A stretch of 64,000 nt of DNA, from assembly GCF_030064675.1 (NCBI RefSeq), contig NZ_CP116413.1:8151501-8215500 (forward strand). The letters run 5' to 3'. The notes beneath the pieces are model-generated. The model was given only the letters and a program-made list of their open reading frames with translations. It was not told where the DNA came from and ran no database searches. Positions within the stretch are counted from its first letter, which is position 1; the number at the start of each line of letters is the position of its first letter. Shown piece after piece: positions 26,601 to 44,397 of the stretch. The position numbers and the translations under genes are program-made. The DNA is from Crossiella sp. CA-258035. GTDB lineage: Bacteria > Actinomycetota > Actinomycetes > Mycobacteriales > Pseudonocardiaceae.

Positions 26601-28397
26601 CTATTCGGAGACCTGCCACTCGGCGACGTTCCAGGTGACGCCCAGCCGCGGGTGGTAGGTGACCTTGTCGATGGTGTCCCGGTAGCCGACCATCGTGGGC
26701 ACCTGGAACAGCGGCAGCGAGGCGATCTCCTCGGCCAGCGTCTTGTCCACGTGCTGGAGCAGCTCGGTGCGCTTGGCCGCGTCCAGCTCGACGCCGACCT
26801 GGTTCAGCTCGCGGTCCACGGTCTGGTTCGACCAGCCGCCCCAGTTCTGCCCGCCGCCGGTGGCGTACATGCCCTTCTTGTCCGACTTCCACTGGGTGCC
26901 GACCCAGCCGAAGAGCGCCACGTCGTAGTCGCCCCGGCTGTTGCGCCCGTCCAGGAAGGCCGGATCGCTGTCATCAACGATCTTGATGCCGGCCGACTCG
27001 CAGGAGGCCTGGATCAGCTCCACGGTCTGCTTGCGCCGGGGCAGCCCGTTGTGGCTGACCTTGATCTCCAGCGCCTTGCCGCCCTTGTCGAAGTACTTGC
27101 CGTCCCGCCGCCAGCCCGCGGCCTGGAGGGTCTTCACCGCCTCTTCGGGGCTGTCCAGCATGAGCTTGGCGTAGTGGTCCTGGTAGCCGTCCTCGCCGGG
27201 CAGGAACAGCAGGCTGCCCAGCGGCTTGGCCGAGGGGTCCACCCCGCGCACCACCTTCTGCACGATCTCCCCGCGCCGCACGCACTGGGCGAAGGCGTAG
27301 CGGACCGCCTTGTCCTGGAACAGCGGCCTGCGCCAGTTCAGGTCCAGGTGCTCGAAGGTGAGCCCGCCACCGGCGGAGTACTTCACGCCCTGGGCGCCCA
27401 GCCCGCGCAGGGTGGCCGCGGTGCTCGGGTCCGGCTGCGGCGCGATCACCTGCATCTTGTTCTCCTGCAGGGCGCGCACCTGGTTGGCCGGGTCGGCCTC
27501 GCTGCGCAGCACCACCGCGGACGGCCCGCCCCGGTTGCCGAGCCACTTCTCGTTGCGCACCAGGCGCACCTGGCTGCCCTGCTGCCAGCTGTCGATCCGG
27601 TACGGGCCGGAGCCGGGCATCAGCTTCGGGTCGAACCCGGTCCAGCTGGTGTTCCAGAACTTGGACACCTTCTCCAGGTCGGCGTCCGGGGAGCTCGGGC
27701 CGACCTTGGTGATGTCCTTGATGCCGGTCTCCCGCTCCAGCACGTGCGCCGGCATCAGGTGGACGGCGTCGAACCGGCTCTTGTAGTCCGGGAACGGCTT
27801 GTCATAGGTGGTGACGAAGGTCAGCTCGTCCTTGCACTGCACCGACATCAGCTCGTAGCCGGTGCTGGCGGCCGGCCGGAAGTACTTGGCGGGCTTGCCG
27901 TCCGGCCCGGTGACCGGGGCGCCGGTGGCGTCGCTGCGCACCGCCTTGCCGCTCTGCGCCAGCCAGGCCAGGTAGAAGTCGTCGCAGTCCCAGGCCTCGC
28001 CGTCGGACCACTTCACGCCGGGCCGGATCCGGTAGGTGACCACCTGCGGGGCGGTGGAGGTCAGCTCGACGCCGAGCATCACGTCGGTGTTGAGCAGCGG
28101 GGACAGGGTGTCCTCGTGGATGAACGGCCCGGCCAGCACCGGGCTCAGCACCAGGGTGTTGTTGAAGTTGCCCGCGTCGGCGACCTGGTTGTTGTAGACG
28201 GTGTAGGGCAGGTCGTGCCCGATGACCACCTCGCCACCGGCGCGCACCGCGGGCAGCTTGTACTGGTCGGTGCCGGGCAGGCGGCCCTTGGCCCCGGTGC
28301 GCTGGCTGTCGCCGTTGAGGCCCGCGTCCTCGCTGGCTGAGGAACAGGCGCCCAGCACCAGCAGCAGGCTGGTCAGGGCGGCCGTCAGCGCGCGCAC
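26601..28397 (-). CDS. ABC transporter substrate-binding lipoprotein, SBP family 5
   Basis: This 598-aa lipoprotein has the lipobox LGAC, then a family-5 (DppA/OppA-type) solute-binding domain with GVKWSDGEAWDCDDF, the segment GSGPYRIDSWQQG and the late NQTVDRELNQVG. It is likely to bind peptides or similar ligands outside the membrane. GTG 28397 is used because GGTAGGAGT precedes it; an earlier GTG at 28424 has no ribosome site. No permease gene is adjacent, as in the mycobacterial LpqW region. Its stop is 100 bp from mshB. Confidence 0.88.
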   Translation of the reverse strand: MRALTAALTSLLLVLGACSSASEDAGLNGDSQRTGAKGRLPGTDQYKLPAVRAGGEVVIGHDLPYTVYNNQVADAGNFNNTLVLSPVLAGPFIHEDTLSPLLNTDVMLGVELTSTAPQVVTYRIRPGVKWSDGEAWDCDDFYLAWLAQSGKAVRSDATGAPVTGPDGKPAKYFRPAASTGYELMSVQCKDELTFVTTYDKPFPDYKSRFDAVHLMPAHVLERETGIKDITKVGPSSPDADLEKVSKFWNTSWTGFDPKLMPGSGPYRIDSWQQGSQVRLVRNEKWLGNRGGPSAVVLRSEADPANQVRALQENKMQVIAPQPDPSTAATLRGLGAQGVKYSAGGGLTFEHLDLNWRRPLFQDKAVRYAFAQCVRRGEIVQKVVRGVDPSAKPLGSLLFLPGEDGYQDHYAKLMLDSPEEAVKTLQAAGWRRDGKYFDKGGKALEIKVSHNGLPRRKQTVELIQASCESAGIKIVDDSDPAFLDGRNSRGDYDVALFGWVGTQWKSDKKGMYATGGGQNWGGWSNQTVDRELNQVGVELDAAKRTELLQHVDKTLAEEIASLPLFQVPTMVGYRDTIDKVTYHPRLGVTWNVAEWQVSE

Positions 28398-28507
28398 GGG
28401 TACTCCTACCGTTGACAGGGACACGTGCGGAGGTTATGGAGGCCCGCCCCGGCGGTCACCACTGGACCACGGATCGTGACCAAAGGGTGATGCCGTTATG
28501 CGGAGCG

Positions 28508-30280
28508 TCACTTGGGCGGCACGCGCTTCCAGGTGTTGGCCGTGGTGAACGGCCCGGCGAAGGCCGGTCCGGGGTCCACCCCGGTGACATCCGCGCCGGT
28601 GGCCAGCACGTCGGCGGACTGGAACAACGGCACCGCGACCACCTGCTGCCACAGCGTGGCCTCGATCCCCGGCAGCACCTGGGCCAGCGGCGCGGCCCCG
28701 GTCAGCGCGGAGTCGATCACCGGTTGCAGGGTGCGGTCGCAGAACCCGGCCGGGTTGGCCGGCACCGCCGGGGCGTCCGCGCCCTGCGGCGGGCAGCCGA
28801 AGCTGGAGGCCAGCACGGTGGCCGGATCGCTGTCGATGACCTGCGGCACCACCGCCAGGTCGACCACGCCGGCGTCCGTGGTGGGCACCCCGGTGGTGCT
28901 GGTCGGCGGGGCCGAGGTGCTGCTGGTGGCGGCGCTGGTCGCGGTCGGCGGGGTGCTGGGCAGCATCTCGCCGAAGAGCTGATCGCCGCCGGAGTTGGTC
29001 ACCTTGGCGTCGATGCCGAACTCGGCCAGCTGGCGGCGGATCAGCCCGGCCAGCGAGGCGTAGGGCTCGCGGTCGGTCGGCGCGCCGATGGTGATGCTCA
29101 GCGGCCGCCCCTCCCGCGCCCACTTGCCCGCGCCGTCCCTGCGGTAGCCCAGCTCGTGCAGCAGCGCGTCCGCCCGGCCGTGGTCCGGCTTGGCCGAGGG
29201 CGTGTCCCCCGGCATGGTCGCGCCGTAACCGGCCTGGGCGGGCCCGTAGACCTGGGCGTCGGCGCGCAGGGCCGCGGCCGGGCCGTTGCCGGTGCCGCTG
29301 GCGATCAGCGCGTTGCGGTCGATCAGGCTGACCAGCGCGGTGCGCATCCGGACGTCGGCCAGCACCGGGCTCACCGGCCGCAGCAACAGCTGCACGGTGC
29401 TGCCCCTGGGCATGGTGGTCAGCTTGGCCACCTCGCCGAGCGCGCTCAGCTGCTCCATCCCGGCCTGGTCGGGGGTGACCACCGCGAGCTGCTCGTTGCC
29501 GCTGCGCAGCGCCGCGGTGATGCCCGCGGTGTCGGTGCGGCGCAGCACGATCCGGCCCAGCGTGGCCGGGGTGCCCCAGTAGCGGTCGTTGCGCTCCAGC
29601 ACCACCTCGCCGCGGGCCAGGTCGATCTGCCGGATGGCGAACCGGCCGCCGGAGGCCGGGAAGCTGGTGTCCAGCACCGCGTTCCAGCCGCCGAAGGCGT
29701 CCTTGAGCAGGTGCGCGGGCAGCAGGTTGCGGAACAGCGACCGCCAGCCGGGGTAGGGCTTGCTGAAGACCACCTCGACGGTCTTGCCGCTGTCCTTGGA
29801 GACCACGTTGCTGATCAGCCGGTAGCCCGCCGGGTTCACCGTGCCCGGCTGGGTGGTCATCTGCCGCCACAGGTAGTCGAAGTCCTCGGCCGCGATCGGC
29901 CCGCCGTCGGACCAGGAGGCGTCCTTGCGCAGCGAGTAGGTCACGGTGAACGGCTCGCTCTTGGTGACCTGGGCGCTGTTGAGCACCGCCGGGTCCGGCC
30001 GGGGCACGCCGTCGGGGCCGGTGCGGAAGGCCGAGGGCAGGATCAGCGTGGCCAGCGCGGTGGTGGCCACCGACTGGTCGGCCAGCGCGTGCGGGTTGAA
30101 CCCCCTGGCCAGCCGGTCCACCCCGACCAGCACCTCGTTGAGGTCGATCACCTTGGTCGGCACGCCCTGCTGGCCGGGGTTCACCAGCGGCGGGGGCGGG
30201 GTGGTCGTGCAGGCCGCCAGCGCGCTGACGCCCAGCAGGGCGAACGCGAGTCGCCGTGCAGCGGATGCGGCCGAGCCCAC
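28508..30280 (-). CDS. LpqW-like lipoprotein, SBP family 5
   Basis: This 590-aa lipoprotein has lipobox LAAC (Cys24) and a family-5 solute-binding domain (KDASWSDGGPIAAEDFDY near 120-137). A Ser/Thr/Pro-rich low-complexity insert sits at about 441-469. Mycobacterial LpqW, from the same gene neighbourhood between typA and mshB, is reported to steer PIM/lipoarabinomannan synthesis and not transport. GTG 30280 follows GGGAGGAG. It and the next SBP gene are tandem paralogues. Confidence 0.85.
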   Translation of the reverse strand: MGSAASAARRLAFALLGVSALAACTTTPPPPLVNPGQQGVPTKVIDLNEVLVGVDRLARGFNPHALADQSVATTALATLILPSAFRTGPDGVPRPDPAVLNSAQVTKSEPFTVTYSLRKDASWSDGGPIAAEDFDYLWRQMTTQPGTVNPAGYRLISNVVSKDSGKTVEVVFSKPYPGWRSLFRNLLPAHLLKDAFGGWNAVLDTSFPASGGRFAIRQIDLARGEVVLERNDRYWGTPATLGRIVLRRTDTAGITAALRSGNEQLAVVTPDQAGMEQLSALGEVAKLTTMPRGSTVQLLLRPVSPVLADVRMRTALVSLIDRNALIASGTGNGPAAALRADAQVYGPAQAGYGATMPGDTPSAKPDHGRADALLHELGYRRDGAGKWAREGRPLSITIGAPTDREPYASLAGLIRRQLAEFGIDAKVTNSGGDQLFGEMLPSTPPTATSAATSSTSAPPTSTTGVPTTDAGVVDLAVVPQVIDSDPATVLASSFGCPPQGADAPAVPANPAGFCDRTLQPVIDSALTGAAPLAQVLPGIEATLWQQVVAVPLFQSADVLATGADVTGVDPGPAFAGPFTTANTWKRVPPK

Positions 30281-32938: not shown

Positions 32939-33247
32939 TCAGCTGGCGAGGAGCTCGTTGTAGGCGAGGAAGGCCGGGGCGGTCCGCGAGGCCTCGAAGT
33001 CGATCACCTCGTGCCGGACGACTCGGCGCAGCTTGAAGGGGTCGGTGGCCAGGATCGCGTCGAGGTGGCCGCGCAGCATCGGACGCGTGACGATGAGTCG
33101 GTCGTGCCGGGTGCCCATGGTCCGGCAACGGCCGGAGAGCAGGAAGTGGCCTGCCTCGTACTGCCGGTCGAGCCAAGCCGCATGCTCCGGCAGTACCAAA
33201 TCGACCTCGCTGGTCGACGCGGTGTAGTTCAGCAGCACGATGTACAT
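32939..33247 (-). CDS. YCII-related (YciI) domain protein
   Basis: This 102-aa protein starts YIVLLNYTASTSEVDLVLPEH and continues HAAWLDRQYEAGHFLLSG, the YCII domain pattern. The family includes YciI-like hydrolases and antibiotic-associated proteins with a conserved His-Asp pair; here the equivalents are His in PEHAAWL and the region near DRQ. The role is unknown. An AT-rich TATTTT lies upstream of the ATG. Confidence 0.85.
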   Translation of the reverse strand: MYIVLLNYTASTSEVDLVLPEHAAWLDRQYEAGHFLLSGRCRTMGTRHDRLIVTRPMLRGHLDAILATDPFKLRRVVRHEVIDFEASRTAPAFLAYNELLAS

Positions 33248-33393
33248 ATTTCAAAAATACGCCCGTGCGACCGGATCGGATCACATCCGCATTTCGACTT
33301 ATACGCATTCTTAACACCCCCGGACGGGCCTACTACCACCGTGTCCGCGACCACGATGTGTCATCGGACACGTTCGACCCAACCGTGATGGTC

Positions 33394-33399
33394 TACGAT
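33394..33399 (+). promoter_or_regulatory. -10 element of the trpS leader transcript
   Basis: TACGAT, with TTCGAC 15 nt upstream as a possible -35, lies 7 nt before the leader-peptide ATG. The message would start at or near that ATG. Confidence 0.5.
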
Positions 33400-33406
33400 G
33401 CTCCCC

Positions 33407-33454
33407 ATGCGCTTGATGTCCAGTCTCTGGCGGGCCGCCCACCGGCGGCCCTAG
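33407..33454 (+). CDS. trpS leader peptide (15 aa, one Trp codon)
   Basis: ATG 33407 opens the peptide MRLMSSLWRAAHRRP and ends at TAG 33452-33454. The single Trp codon (33428-33430) sits 1 nt before the first hairpin arm, so stalling here would uncover the next arm. It is probably leaderless. The role is inferred from position and arm pairing. Confidence 0.75.
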   Translation: MRLMSSLWRAAHRRP

Positions 33455-33505
33455 TCACGCGCACCTGAACCTGACCACAGGCCGCCGCTGCGAGGCGGCC
33501 TGTGG
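33432..33505 (+). terminator. Transcription attenuator of trpS
   Basis: Arm 1 GGGCCGCC (33432-33439) pairs with arm 2 GGCGGCCC (33444-33451). Arm 3 CCACAGGCCGCC (33475-33486) and arm 4 GGCGGCCTGTGG (33494-33505) form a perfect 12-bp terminator stem. Arms 2 and 3 can pair instead (GGCGGCC with GGCCGCC), giving a classic antiterminator when a ribosome stalls on the leader Trp codon over arm 1. Trp or charged-tRNA scarcity would raise trpS expression. Confidence 0.8.
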
Positions 33506-33562
33506 TGTATACGCAGCACAACCGGCCCCGCGGCGGCGCACGAACCCGCGGGGAGACCCTCG

Positions 33563-34534
33563 ATGACCCAGTTCTCCGGCATCCAGCCGACCGGCCTGAC
33601 CCACCTGGGCAACTACCTCGGCGCGATCCGGCAGTGGGCCGCCCGGCACCACCGGGATGATCTTTTCTGCGTCGTCGACCTGCATGCGATGACCATCCGG
33701 CACAACCCGAACGTGTTGCGCGCCCGTGCCAGAGAGCAACTGGCGATGCTCGTCGCGGCCGGGGTGAATCCGGACATCGCGTGTGTTTTCACCCAGTCCG
33801 ACCTCATCCAGGAGCACGCCGCGCTGACCTGGGTGCTGGAGTGCGTGGTGTCCTACGGCGAGCTGGCCAGGATGACCCAGTTCAAGGACAAGGCCAAGGG
33901 CCAGGACGGGGTGCGCGCCGGGCTGTTCACCTACCCGGTGCTGATGGCCGCGGACATCCTGCTGCACGGCGCGGAGGAGGTGCCGGTGGGCGAGGACCAG
34001 CGCCAGCACCTGGAGCTGGCCCGCACGCTGGCCAAACGGTTCAACGCCACGTACGGGGAGGTGCTCACCGTGCCCAGGGCGGTGACGCCCCGGGTGGCCG
34101 CGCGGGTGGGCGACCTGGCCGCGCCGGAGCGGAAGATGTCCAAGTCCAGCGGCGACCAGTCCGGCACCGTGCTGGTGCTGGACCCGCCGGAGCTGATCCG
34201 CCGCAAGATCATGCGCGCGGTCACCGACCAGGTCGGCGAGGTCCGCTACGCCCCGGAGACCCAGCCGGGGGTGAGCAACCTGCTGGACATCCTGGCCGCC
34301 TGCGTCAACGGCGAGCCCAGGGCGCTGGCCGAGCAGATCGGCGGGTACGCCGAGTTGAAGGAGCGCACGGCGGAGGCGGTGATCGAGGAGCTGCGGCCGG
34401 TGCGCGAGGGCGTGCGGGAGCTGCTGGCGGATCCGGCCGAGCTGGACCAGCTCCGGGCGCACGGGGCCGAGCGGGCGCGGGCCGGGTGCGCGCACCGGCT
34501 GGAAGCGGTGCTCAAGGTGACCGGGCTGCGCTGA
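33563..34534 (+). CDS. trpS: Tryptophanyl-tRNA synthetase
   Basis: This 323-aa class I synthetase charges tRNA-Trp. It shows GIQPTGLTHLGNYLGA (HIGH-type), VGEDQRQHLEL and KMSKSSGDQSG. ATG 33563 has GGGGAG 8 nt upstream. The attenuator upstream ties its expression to Trp supply. In Streptomyces coelicolor an auxiliary, indolmycin-resistant TrpRS is controlled by attenuation, so this gene may likewise be a second trpS. Confidence 0.94.
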   Translation: MTQFSGIQPTGLTHLGNYLGAIRQWAARHHRDDLFCVVDLHAMTIRHNPNVLRARAREQLAMLVAAGVNPDIACVFTQSDLIQEHAALTWVLECVVSYGELARMTQFKDKAKGQDGVRAGLFTYPVLMAADILLHGAEEVPVGEDQRQHLELARTLAKRFNATYGEVLTVPRAVTPRVAARVGDLAAPERKMSKSSGDQSGTVLVLDPPELIRRKIMRAVTDQVGEVRYAPETQPGVSNLLDILAACVNGEPRALAEQIGGYAELKERTAEAVIEELRPVREGVRELLADPAELDQLRAHGAERARAGCAHRLEAVLKVTGLR

Positions 34535-43219: not shown

Positions 43220-44238
43220 TGCTCCACCCAGCGCTCCCGACCCTCGGCGACCTTGGCCGCGGGCAGCGTGGCCGCCTGCTGCGGCTGCGGCGCGACCTGC
43301 TGCCAGACCGGCGGCAGCGCGACGCCCTCACGGGCCGGGTAGACGAACATCTGCTCGGCCACCTGCGCCTGGAACTTCTCGCCCAGCAGGAAGTCGACCA
43401 GCTTGCGCGCGGCATCGGGCTGCTTGGCGCCCTTGAGCACGCCGGTGTACTCGACCTGGCGGTAGCAGGTGTCCAGCAGCGCCTTGGTCTTCGGCTTGCC
43501 GTCCTCACCGACCTCGGCCGCGGGCGAGGAGGCGTAGGAGAGCACGATCGGCCGCTTTCCCTTGCCGCCCACCGAGAACTCCTGCTTGTAGGCGGTCTCC
43601 CAGCCGTTGACCACCTTGACCCCGTTGGCCTTCAACCGGTTCCAGTACCCGGCCCAGCCGTCCTCGCCGAACTTGGCCACCGTGTTGAGCAGGAAGGCCA
43701 GCCCCGGCGAGGAGGTCGCGGGGTCGGAGACCACCAGCAGGTCCTTGTACTTCGCATCGGCGAGGTCGTCCAGCGACTTCGGCTCGGCCAAGCCCTGCTT
43801 CGCGAAGTAGCCGAGGTCCACGTTCAGGCACACATCGCCGAGGTCGACCGCGGACAGCGCGTTCGAGCCCTCCACCGCGTAGCGCTGCGGGCCCTTGGCC
43901 GCCTCCGGGCTCTGGTAGGGCTCCAGCAGACCGTTGTCGATGGCCCTGGAGGCGAAGGTGGAGTCCACGCCGAAGACCACGTCGCCCAGCGGGTTGGCCT
44001 TGGTCAGCACCAGCTGGTTGGTCAGCGCGCCCGCGTCGCCCAGCGCCCGCTGCTCCACGGTGATCCCGGTCTGCTTCTTGAACTCGGCGAACACCCCCTC
44101 GGCCACCGCGAAGGACTCGTGCGTGAGCAGCACCACCTTGGTCTCCCCCGGCGGCGCGGGCGTCGGCCCGGTCAACGAGCACCCCTCGAGCAGGACAAGA
44201 CTGGTGACCAGCGCGAACGCGGCCGATGTGCGACGCAA
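43195..44238 (-). CDS. thiB: Thiamine ABC transporter substrate-binding lipoprotein
   Basis: This 347-aa protein has lipobox LEGC and a ThiB-type binding domain: VVLLTHESFAVAEGVFAEFK, TNQLVLTKANPLGDVVFGVD and GLAFLLNTVAKFGEDGW. I start it at a TTG (44238) because AGGAGG lies 4-5 nt upstream and the signal sequence then begins directly; a longer frame would run through the riboswitch. Thiamine or TPP is the predicted ligand. Confidence 0.88.
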   Translation of the reverse strand: MRRTSAAFALVTSLVLLEGCSLTGPTPAPPGETKVVLLTHESFAVAEGVFAEFKKQTGITVEQRALGDAGALTNQLVLTKANPLGDVVFGVDSTFASRAIDNGLLEPYQSPEAAKGPQRYAVEGSNALSAVDLGDVCLNVDLGYFAKQGLAEPKSLDDLADAKYKDLLVVSDPATSSPGLAFLLNTVAKFGEDGWAGYWNRLKANGVKVVNGWETAYKQEFSVGGKGKRPIVLSYASSPAAEVGEDGKPKTKALLDTCYRQVEYTGVLKGAKQPDAARKLVDFLLGEKFQAQVAEQMFVYPAREGVALPPVWQQVAPQPQQAATLPAAKVAEGRERWVEQWRKLVQG

Positions 44239-44251
44239 AGTTCCTCCTGAC

Positions 44252-44340
44252 GCAGTCCCTACACCGGCATGACCCGGATCAGGTGCGGACGGTCGAGAGC
44301 TGACCGCTCTCCTCTCAGCCCGGCAACACCGGACTCCCGT
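44252..44340 (-). ncRNA. TPP (THI-box) riboswitch
   Basis: On the minus strand the leader carries CTGAGAGG (the THI-box pyrimidine-sensor core, 44311-44318), ACCTGATC (44277-44284) and CATGCCGGTGTAGGGA, with an outer stem formed by AGTCC/GGACT. These are the diagnostic conserved elements. It ends 13 nt before thiB's TTG and next to the AGGAGG, so thiamine pyrophosphate binding should shut down translation or transcription of thiBPQ. Confidence 0.95.
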
Positions 44341-44345
44341 GGCAT

Positions 44346-44397
44346 CCAGGGTCTGTCCAGGGACTCGCGTTCGTGAGAGTCCCTGGACAGACCCTGG
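44346..44397. repeat. 52-bp near-perfect palindrome upstream of the TPP riboswitch
   Basis: The left arm is the 21 bases at 44346-44366 (beginning CCAGGGTCTG), the loop is GCGTTCGT and the right arm at 44375-44397 matches it perfectly but for two added bases. It sits between divergent thiB and pterin-dehydratase genes, so it is not at a 3' end. It may be a promoter operator or a palindromic repeat element; GCGTTCGTGA is shared with the element at 30422. Confidence 0.7.

Follow-up and report, generated by a model that had tools for sequence, protein, structure and literature searches.

The trpS gene for an auxiliary TrpRS of Crossiella sp. CA-258035 is very probably controlled by a ribosome-mediated transcription attenuator, as judged from sequence comparison and RNA modeling of its leader. 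The gene lies in the 64,000-nucleotide stretch of the genome that was analyzed as a whole (hereafter, the window), and the predicted switch looks like one that activates a spare TrpRS at a shortage of charged tRNA-Trp. The anatomy of the leader, its conservation, where the Trp codon lies with respect to the arms, and the kinship of the enzyme were computed here. They place the element, as a well-supported assignment, in the trpRS1/trpL2 type of attenuation, a mechanism already known from Streptomyces. The features of the region are as follows.

33394 to 33399, plus strand: TACGAT, predicted -10 box (TAnnnT) of the promoter for a leaderless transcript, from the sequence and the leaders of relatives
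33407 to 33454, plus strand: leader open reading frame (ORF) of 15 codons, MRLMSSLWRAAHRRP followed by the stop, with ATG at 33407-33409 and TAG at 33452-33454
33408 to 33412, plus strand: UGCGC, the upstream strand of the basal helix, overlapping the start codon, from the fold and family covariation
33428 to 33430, plus strand: single regulatory Trp codon, TGG, at codon index 7, within the permissive indices 5-8
33432 to 33439, plus strand: arm 1, GGGCCGCC, 1 nt past the Trp codon, from the sequence and fold
33444 to 33451, plus strand: arm 2, GGCGGCCC, pairing over 8 bp with arm 1, from the sequence and fold
33459 to 33463, plus strand: GCGCA, the downstream strand of the basal helix, shortly after the leader stop codon, from the fold and family covariation
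33475 to 33486, plus strand: arm 3, CCACAGGCCGCC, the upstream half of the terminator stem, in which 33480-33487 is the stretch that arm 2 pairs with in the antiterminator
33494 to 33505, plus strand: arm 4, GGCGGCCTGTGG, the 3' side of the terminator, with 12 perfect pairs to arm 3
33526 to 33553, plus strand: possible SD hairpin, CCCCGCGG (33526-33533) with CCGCGGGG (33546-33553), from complementarity and fold
33563 to 34534, plus strand: trpS, auxiliary TrpRS of 323 amino acids with Gln at the equivalent of position 9; Pfam PF00579, E = 1.5e-60

The probable leaderless 15-residue leader of the original prediction, with one Trp codon 1 nt before arm 1, can be read directly in the sequence, and the predicted 1:2 hairpin (8 bp), 2:3 complementarity (8 bp, with arm 2 taken as 33443-33450 against 33480-33487), and 3:4 stem (12 bp) are all present. 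These three pairings are mutually exclusive in the window leader, and the stop codon of the leader ORF sits at the end of arm 2. RNA folding, a check proposed along with that prediction, was run on positions 33407-33513 and gave -62.1 kcal/mol (z = -4.94), a value equalled by none of 200 shuffles. The ATG at 33407 is 7 nt past the TACGAT box, which would put the leader start codon at, or adjoining, the predicted transcription start. Other in-frame ATG codons occur upstream, at 33398, and downstream, at 33416; the start at 33407 is favored because the distance from box to start is constant in relatives. A simple consensus scan of positions 33200-33600 revealed no sigma-70 promoter, so the evidence for a promoter is the TAnnnT box. 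In the same interval, no U-tailed terminator was detected at the scan threshold, the 3:4 hairpin being without a U-run; the 12 bases past the GGCGGC of arm 4 contain 5 T residues in the window and 1 to 9 across 42 of the 44 leaders described below. The leader has no match to any family of Rfam 15, T-box riboswitches included, at the gathering threshold, so that the family could be curated from the leader alignments. Elsewhere in the window, Rfam recognizes one element only, a TPP riboswitch aptamer (44238-44350, minus strand, 58.4 bits, at the gathering threshold).

Crossiella belongs to the Pseudonocardiaceae (NCBI taxonomy). TrpRS matches were found in every one of the 150 genomes searched, its own included, and of the 89 other genomes from the family, 43 encode a trpS copy 57 to 88% identical to that of the window, a count that covers homologs within this identity range; the next best TrpRS of the family among the matches listed is 53% identical. 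Reading of the upstream DNA revealed a short ORF with Trp codons ahead of GGCC/GGCGGCC-type arms in all 44 close family homologs, including that of the window. Tandem TGG codons are present in 37 of these leaders and a single TGG in the other 7 (L001, L003, L004, L009, L012, L043, and L045). The single Trp codon of the window leader is probably a derived state, since L005, from the same genus, has two. A TAnnnT box is found 6 to 8 nt (exactly 7 in 27 cases) ahead of an in-frame start in 42 of the 44 leaders, the exceptions being L030 and L031; where a leader had several possible starts, the one bearing the box was taken, which for L039 is 12 nt upstream of the start used in the alignments. As a control, ATG and GTG codons further upstream had a box 5 to 8 nt before them in 5 of 427 cases. 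The arms themselves are nearly invariant, and their pairings accordingly show almost no covariation (covariation term, -0.16), as expected of arms with two partners each.

For hold-out searches, a covariance model was trained on 29 leaders (alignment A3), none of them from the genus of the window. It recognized the window leader with a score of 74.4 bits (E = 2.4e-15 in 64 kb), and in the entire 9.17-Mb genome this place was the only clear match (E = 3.5e-13), the next one having an E value of 1.69. Among 51 loci, the model found all 24 family trpS loci outside the training set (L003-L005, L013-L016, L021, L024, L025, L027, L030, L031, L033, L081-L089, and L092; 33.9 to 97.7 bits); a small number of these loci stem from identical or near-identical genomes. 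It also matched three Nocardioides trpS loci, L095, L097, and, weakly, L096 (25.6 bits), and gave no match at the trpS loci L002, L090, L091, L093, L094, L098, and L099 of the same set. All 8 auxiliary trpS genes of a Streptomyces-like genus were found, a result that is not a frequency because their genomes had been picked through the matches of an earlier model. At 21 other trpS loci (16 of the housekeeping group and 5 others), no match reached an E value below 0.01, the best one scoring 13.5 bits (E = 0.3).

In a search of the phylum with the earlier model, 75 of 396 genomes had matches at E values up to 0.01; the loci read from model searches number 28, 4 plus 24 from this phylum search. 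When 61 genomes of the Streptomyces-like genus were drawn evenly and counted by model matches only, 59 had matches at E values of 0.001 or better, and at least two matches (by row count) were present in 37 of those 59. The second class of these matches has a WWW leader, which in S. lividans precedes trpE. The genus, whose leaders MTRTCTQLWWAA and MFAHSTQNWWWTAHPAAH match the S. lividans trpL2 and trpL1, is taken here to be Streptomyces.

These data bear on the trivial explanation that GC-rich inverted repeats happen by chance to surround a short ORF that is itself spurious. The window is indeed GC-rich (66 to 78% in 2-kb steps), and the simple scans gave neither a promoter nor a terminator. 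However, the genome-wide hold-out E value of 3.5e-13, the leader shared by all 44 close homologs, and the folding z score of -4.94 all contradict a chance origin, which can be regarded as extremely improbable.

Folding of the leaders around a ribosome footprint, which assumes 13 nt 3' of the start of the A-site codon and relies on arm finders tuned on the same leaders, could be parsed for 37 of the 44. A stall at the first Trp codon gave the 2:3 pairing in all 37; with the ribosome at the stop codon, 2:3 formed in none and 3:4 in all 37. Without a ribosome, the 1:2 hairpin formed in 31 of them. A stricter scan of every codon, with 39 of the 44 leaders parsed and 5 unparsed, replaced a looser per-codon scan (41 parsed) that had passed 53% of the codons. 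It found the first Trp codon permissive in 38 leaders and the stop codon in none, a mean of 30% of codons being permissive per leader; none was permissive in L014, and in 4 of the 39 leaders the ribosome-free RNA already preferred 2:3. In the window leader, arm 2 is freed only by stalls at codon indices 5 to 8 (the start codon being 0), and the Trp codon has index 7, so that a stall site is located where the mechanism needs one.

According to the proposed mechanism, transcription would begin at the ATG of the leader itself (33407). When Trp-tRNA is plentiful, the ribosome would pass the TGG codon and continue to the leader stop codon, where it would cover arm 2; 3:4 would then form, and RNA polymerase would be expected to terminate near 33505-33510. 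Scarcity of Trp-tRNA could come from Trp starvation or from a housekeeping TrpRS that is poisoned or insufficient; the ribosome would then wait at TGG over arm 1, 2:3 would pair before arm 4 has been made, and trpS would be transcribed, i.e., induced. If the leader went untranslated, the 1:2 hairpin and the basal helix would form, leaving arm 3 to arm 4, with termination as the likely outcome. The attenuator reading of the original prediction is thus backed, computationally, by the anatomy, the leaders of all 44 homologs, the hold-out model, and the footprint folding.

The same leader could be seen as a mainly translational switch, in which 3:4 terminates poorly for want of a U-run and the hairpin at 33526-33553 limits trpS translation by covering the SD sequence. 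The U-run is in fact missing after 3:4, and the pairing probability of the SD in 42 of the 44 leaders (mean, 0.69) exceeds that in shuffled sequences (0.52; Wilcoxon p = 1.6e-7, the rows not being independent). However, the SD pairing in the window has a p value of 0.16, values below 0.05 are found in only 13 of the 42 leaders, and the SD hairpin is not obviously opened by any arm of the attenuator. Besides, several relatives have T-rich tails past arm 4, and the S. lividans trpL2 is described as an attenuator although it has no U-rich stretch (PMC8079986). A switch that is mainly translational appears quite improbable, and the U-run is seemingly dispensable in the trpS subgroup, since trpL2 also lacks a uridine-rich sequence. 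A GGYGGC loop before the SD was considered as a T-box candidate and rejected: its Y is not a fixed U, there is no space for Stem I, and Rfam gives no match.

The leader also has a basal helix, in which its first bases pair with bases past arm 2. In the window alone, this helix has 5 bp and is not significant (p = 0.36), and p values below 0.05 are found in 15 of the 44 leaders. Alignment A2, which includes 32 of the 44 leaders, has a 7-pair basal helix with changes on both sides in 5 of the 7 pairs and 75% of the cells paired; the three inner pairs are missing from 12, 19, and 14 of the 32 sequences, respectively. For the A2 structure as a whole, which was drawn from the same sequences that were used to test it, 89.5% of the cells are paired, versus 33 to 51% when it is slid, and both the covariation score and the cells paired are above those of all 500 shuffles; the count of further pair types is not, being reached by 152 of the 500. 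The helix test does not extend to those leaders for which the rule used to choose the leader start chose wrongly, namely 6 of the 8 Streptomyces-like trpS leaders (5 unparsed and 1 without a helix) and 1 of the 11 trpE-type leaders. Six WWW leaders of the Streptomyces-like genus (L052, L054, L057, L058, L061, and L062) have the same architecture, including a helix from the start to past arm 2, with one p value below 0.05; from their likeness to the S. lividans trpL1, these are probably trpE leaders.

Attenuators of this type have precedents. In 2010, Vecchione and Sello reportedly described ribosome-mediated transcriptional attenuation of trpRS1, which likewise encodes an auxiliary TrpRS, in S. 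coelicolor. As described in PMC8079986, the trpL2 leader of S. lividans TK24, MMTRTCTQLWRAA followed by the stop, is leaderless, with one Trp codon, two hairpins, and no U-rich stretch. The window leader shares all these properties, as well as the LWRAA motif; trpL2, however, has 13 residues, ending with WRAA and the stop, and the window leader has 15 and stops where arm 2 ends. An attenuator of trpS2 in S. avermitilis was predicted already in 2005 (PMC1262725). In that paper, this attenuator and those of the trp operons of Streptomyces and Corynebacterium have classical arms with GGCC-type complementary triples, similarly to the window leader, whereas the trp-operon leaders, unlike it, are described as having poly-U tails and more than one Trp codon (two or three). 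In the genome of the window, no such Trp leader was seen before the best of the six TIGR00564 matches, examined as a candidate trpE.

The product of the window trpS belongs to the Pfam class I W/Y synthetases and is 98% identical to the TrpRS of Crossiella sp. SN42. The search for another trpS gene in the genome, suggested with the original prediction, found one at C1:843902, 49% identical to the window copy. In a quickly built tree of 72 TrpRS (17 of the 68 inner branches drawn open and the position-9 column kept), the attenuator-bearing sampled enzymes require a single change of state; the attenuator labels were set from the leaders read and were later borne out by the hold-out model. These enzymes come from the family of the window, from Nocardioides, and from the Streptomyces-like genus, and together make up a single clade (SH-aLRT, 89), a topology that favors the parallel with the auxiliary TrpRS of Streptomyces that had been drawn from the window sequence. 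Members of this clade that have no attenuator may exist outside the tree sample.

Within the clade, the residue at position 9 varies. It is Lys in all 8 auxiliary enzymes of the Streptomyces-like genus, in contrast to the Gln of the window enzyme. Of the 40 tree rows that come from the family, 30 have Thr, 8 have Gln (Crossiella and the genus of L006 and L007), one has Lys (L008), and one has Arg (L013); all 16 TrpRS of the housekeeping group have Gln. The Crossiella Gln9 is nested among Thr9 rows with moderate support (SH-aLRT, 85 to 90) and is therefore probably a return to this residue. The Nocardioides enzymes of L095, L096, and L097 have Thr. Lys9 is presumably the determinant of indolmycin resistance in the auxiliary TrpRS; Kitabatake is said to have found in 2002 that it confers this resistance.

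If the attenuator served self-resistance, an indolmycin-type drug would poison the housekeeping TrpRS and the resistant copy would be induced. The leader should stall under any TrpRS poison, and the window enzyme shares a clade with the Streptomyces-like auxiliary TrpRS, 8 of 8 of which carry Lys9; SGR_3809 of S. griseus has been reported to be resistant to indolmycin (PMC6804068). However, the Crossiella enzyme has the Gln9 of the 16 housekeeping copies within a clade of mostly Thr9 enzymes, and its typA-YciI-trpS-NUDIX neighborhood is conserved. This neighborhood was compared within the relatives of the window: among 39 loci, of which some may be too short to show all the genes and a few are near-duplicates, TypA was found upstream in 31, YciI upstream in 34, and NUDIX downstream in 35, always in the same orientation as in the window. 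None of the ten window proteins that were run against Pfam had the look of antibiotic biosynthesis; two adjoining family-5 extracellular solute-binding proteins (PF00496) are encoded at 26601-30280 on the minus strand. Taken from sequence comparison, an antibiotic-resistance role is not indicated for the window trpS, and self-resistance is an unlikely purpose of its attenuator. The suggestion that this trpS is a second, antibiotic-linked copy thus holds for the second copy, and its antibiotic link is not supported, in view of Gln9, the conserved neighborhood, and the Pfam results.

A more far-reaching reading, put forward as one joint proposal and less likely than not, is that the window trpS could be an old, vertically inherited backup for Trp starvation or TrpRS insufficiency, in which control outlived the resistance residue (with Gln9 regained), and that its leaderless start could act as a "one-shot timer." In such a timer, the basal helix would close when the leaderless start goes unused in time, drawing the 5'-terminal start codon into pairing with bases past the leader stop, so that the switch could be operated only by a ribosome that initiates before about +57; the SD hairpin would be a possible second gate.

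In the literature searched, which left most subscription journals outside its coverage, neither Crossiella nor its family was found to have a previously described attenuator of this kind before trpS. With the current analysis, attenuation of the trpRS1 type reaches beyond Streptomyces to a large part of the Pseudonocardiaceae (the 43 of 89 other genomes), with the three Nocardioides trpS loci, one of them a weak match, in addition. Induction by Trp-tRNA shortage and drug resistance, usually told together, are separated here, and this separation can be tested within one genus.

Two further leaders came up beside other genes. At L065 (positions 1501-1610, G458:C4:498027-498136), the leader MMIHTAQWWWPTE, followed by the stop, lies ahead of a TrpRS gene (G458:C4:498274-499215) whose product is 33% identical to that of the window, apparently a case in which a Trp attenuator and a second TrpRS came together independently. 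At L075 (G373:C18:78299-78413), the model touches the leader MRNLSSTLLVVGTSRR, also followed by the stop, before an apparent acetolactate synthase gene (identified by eye); this leader is possibly a branched-chain attenuator.
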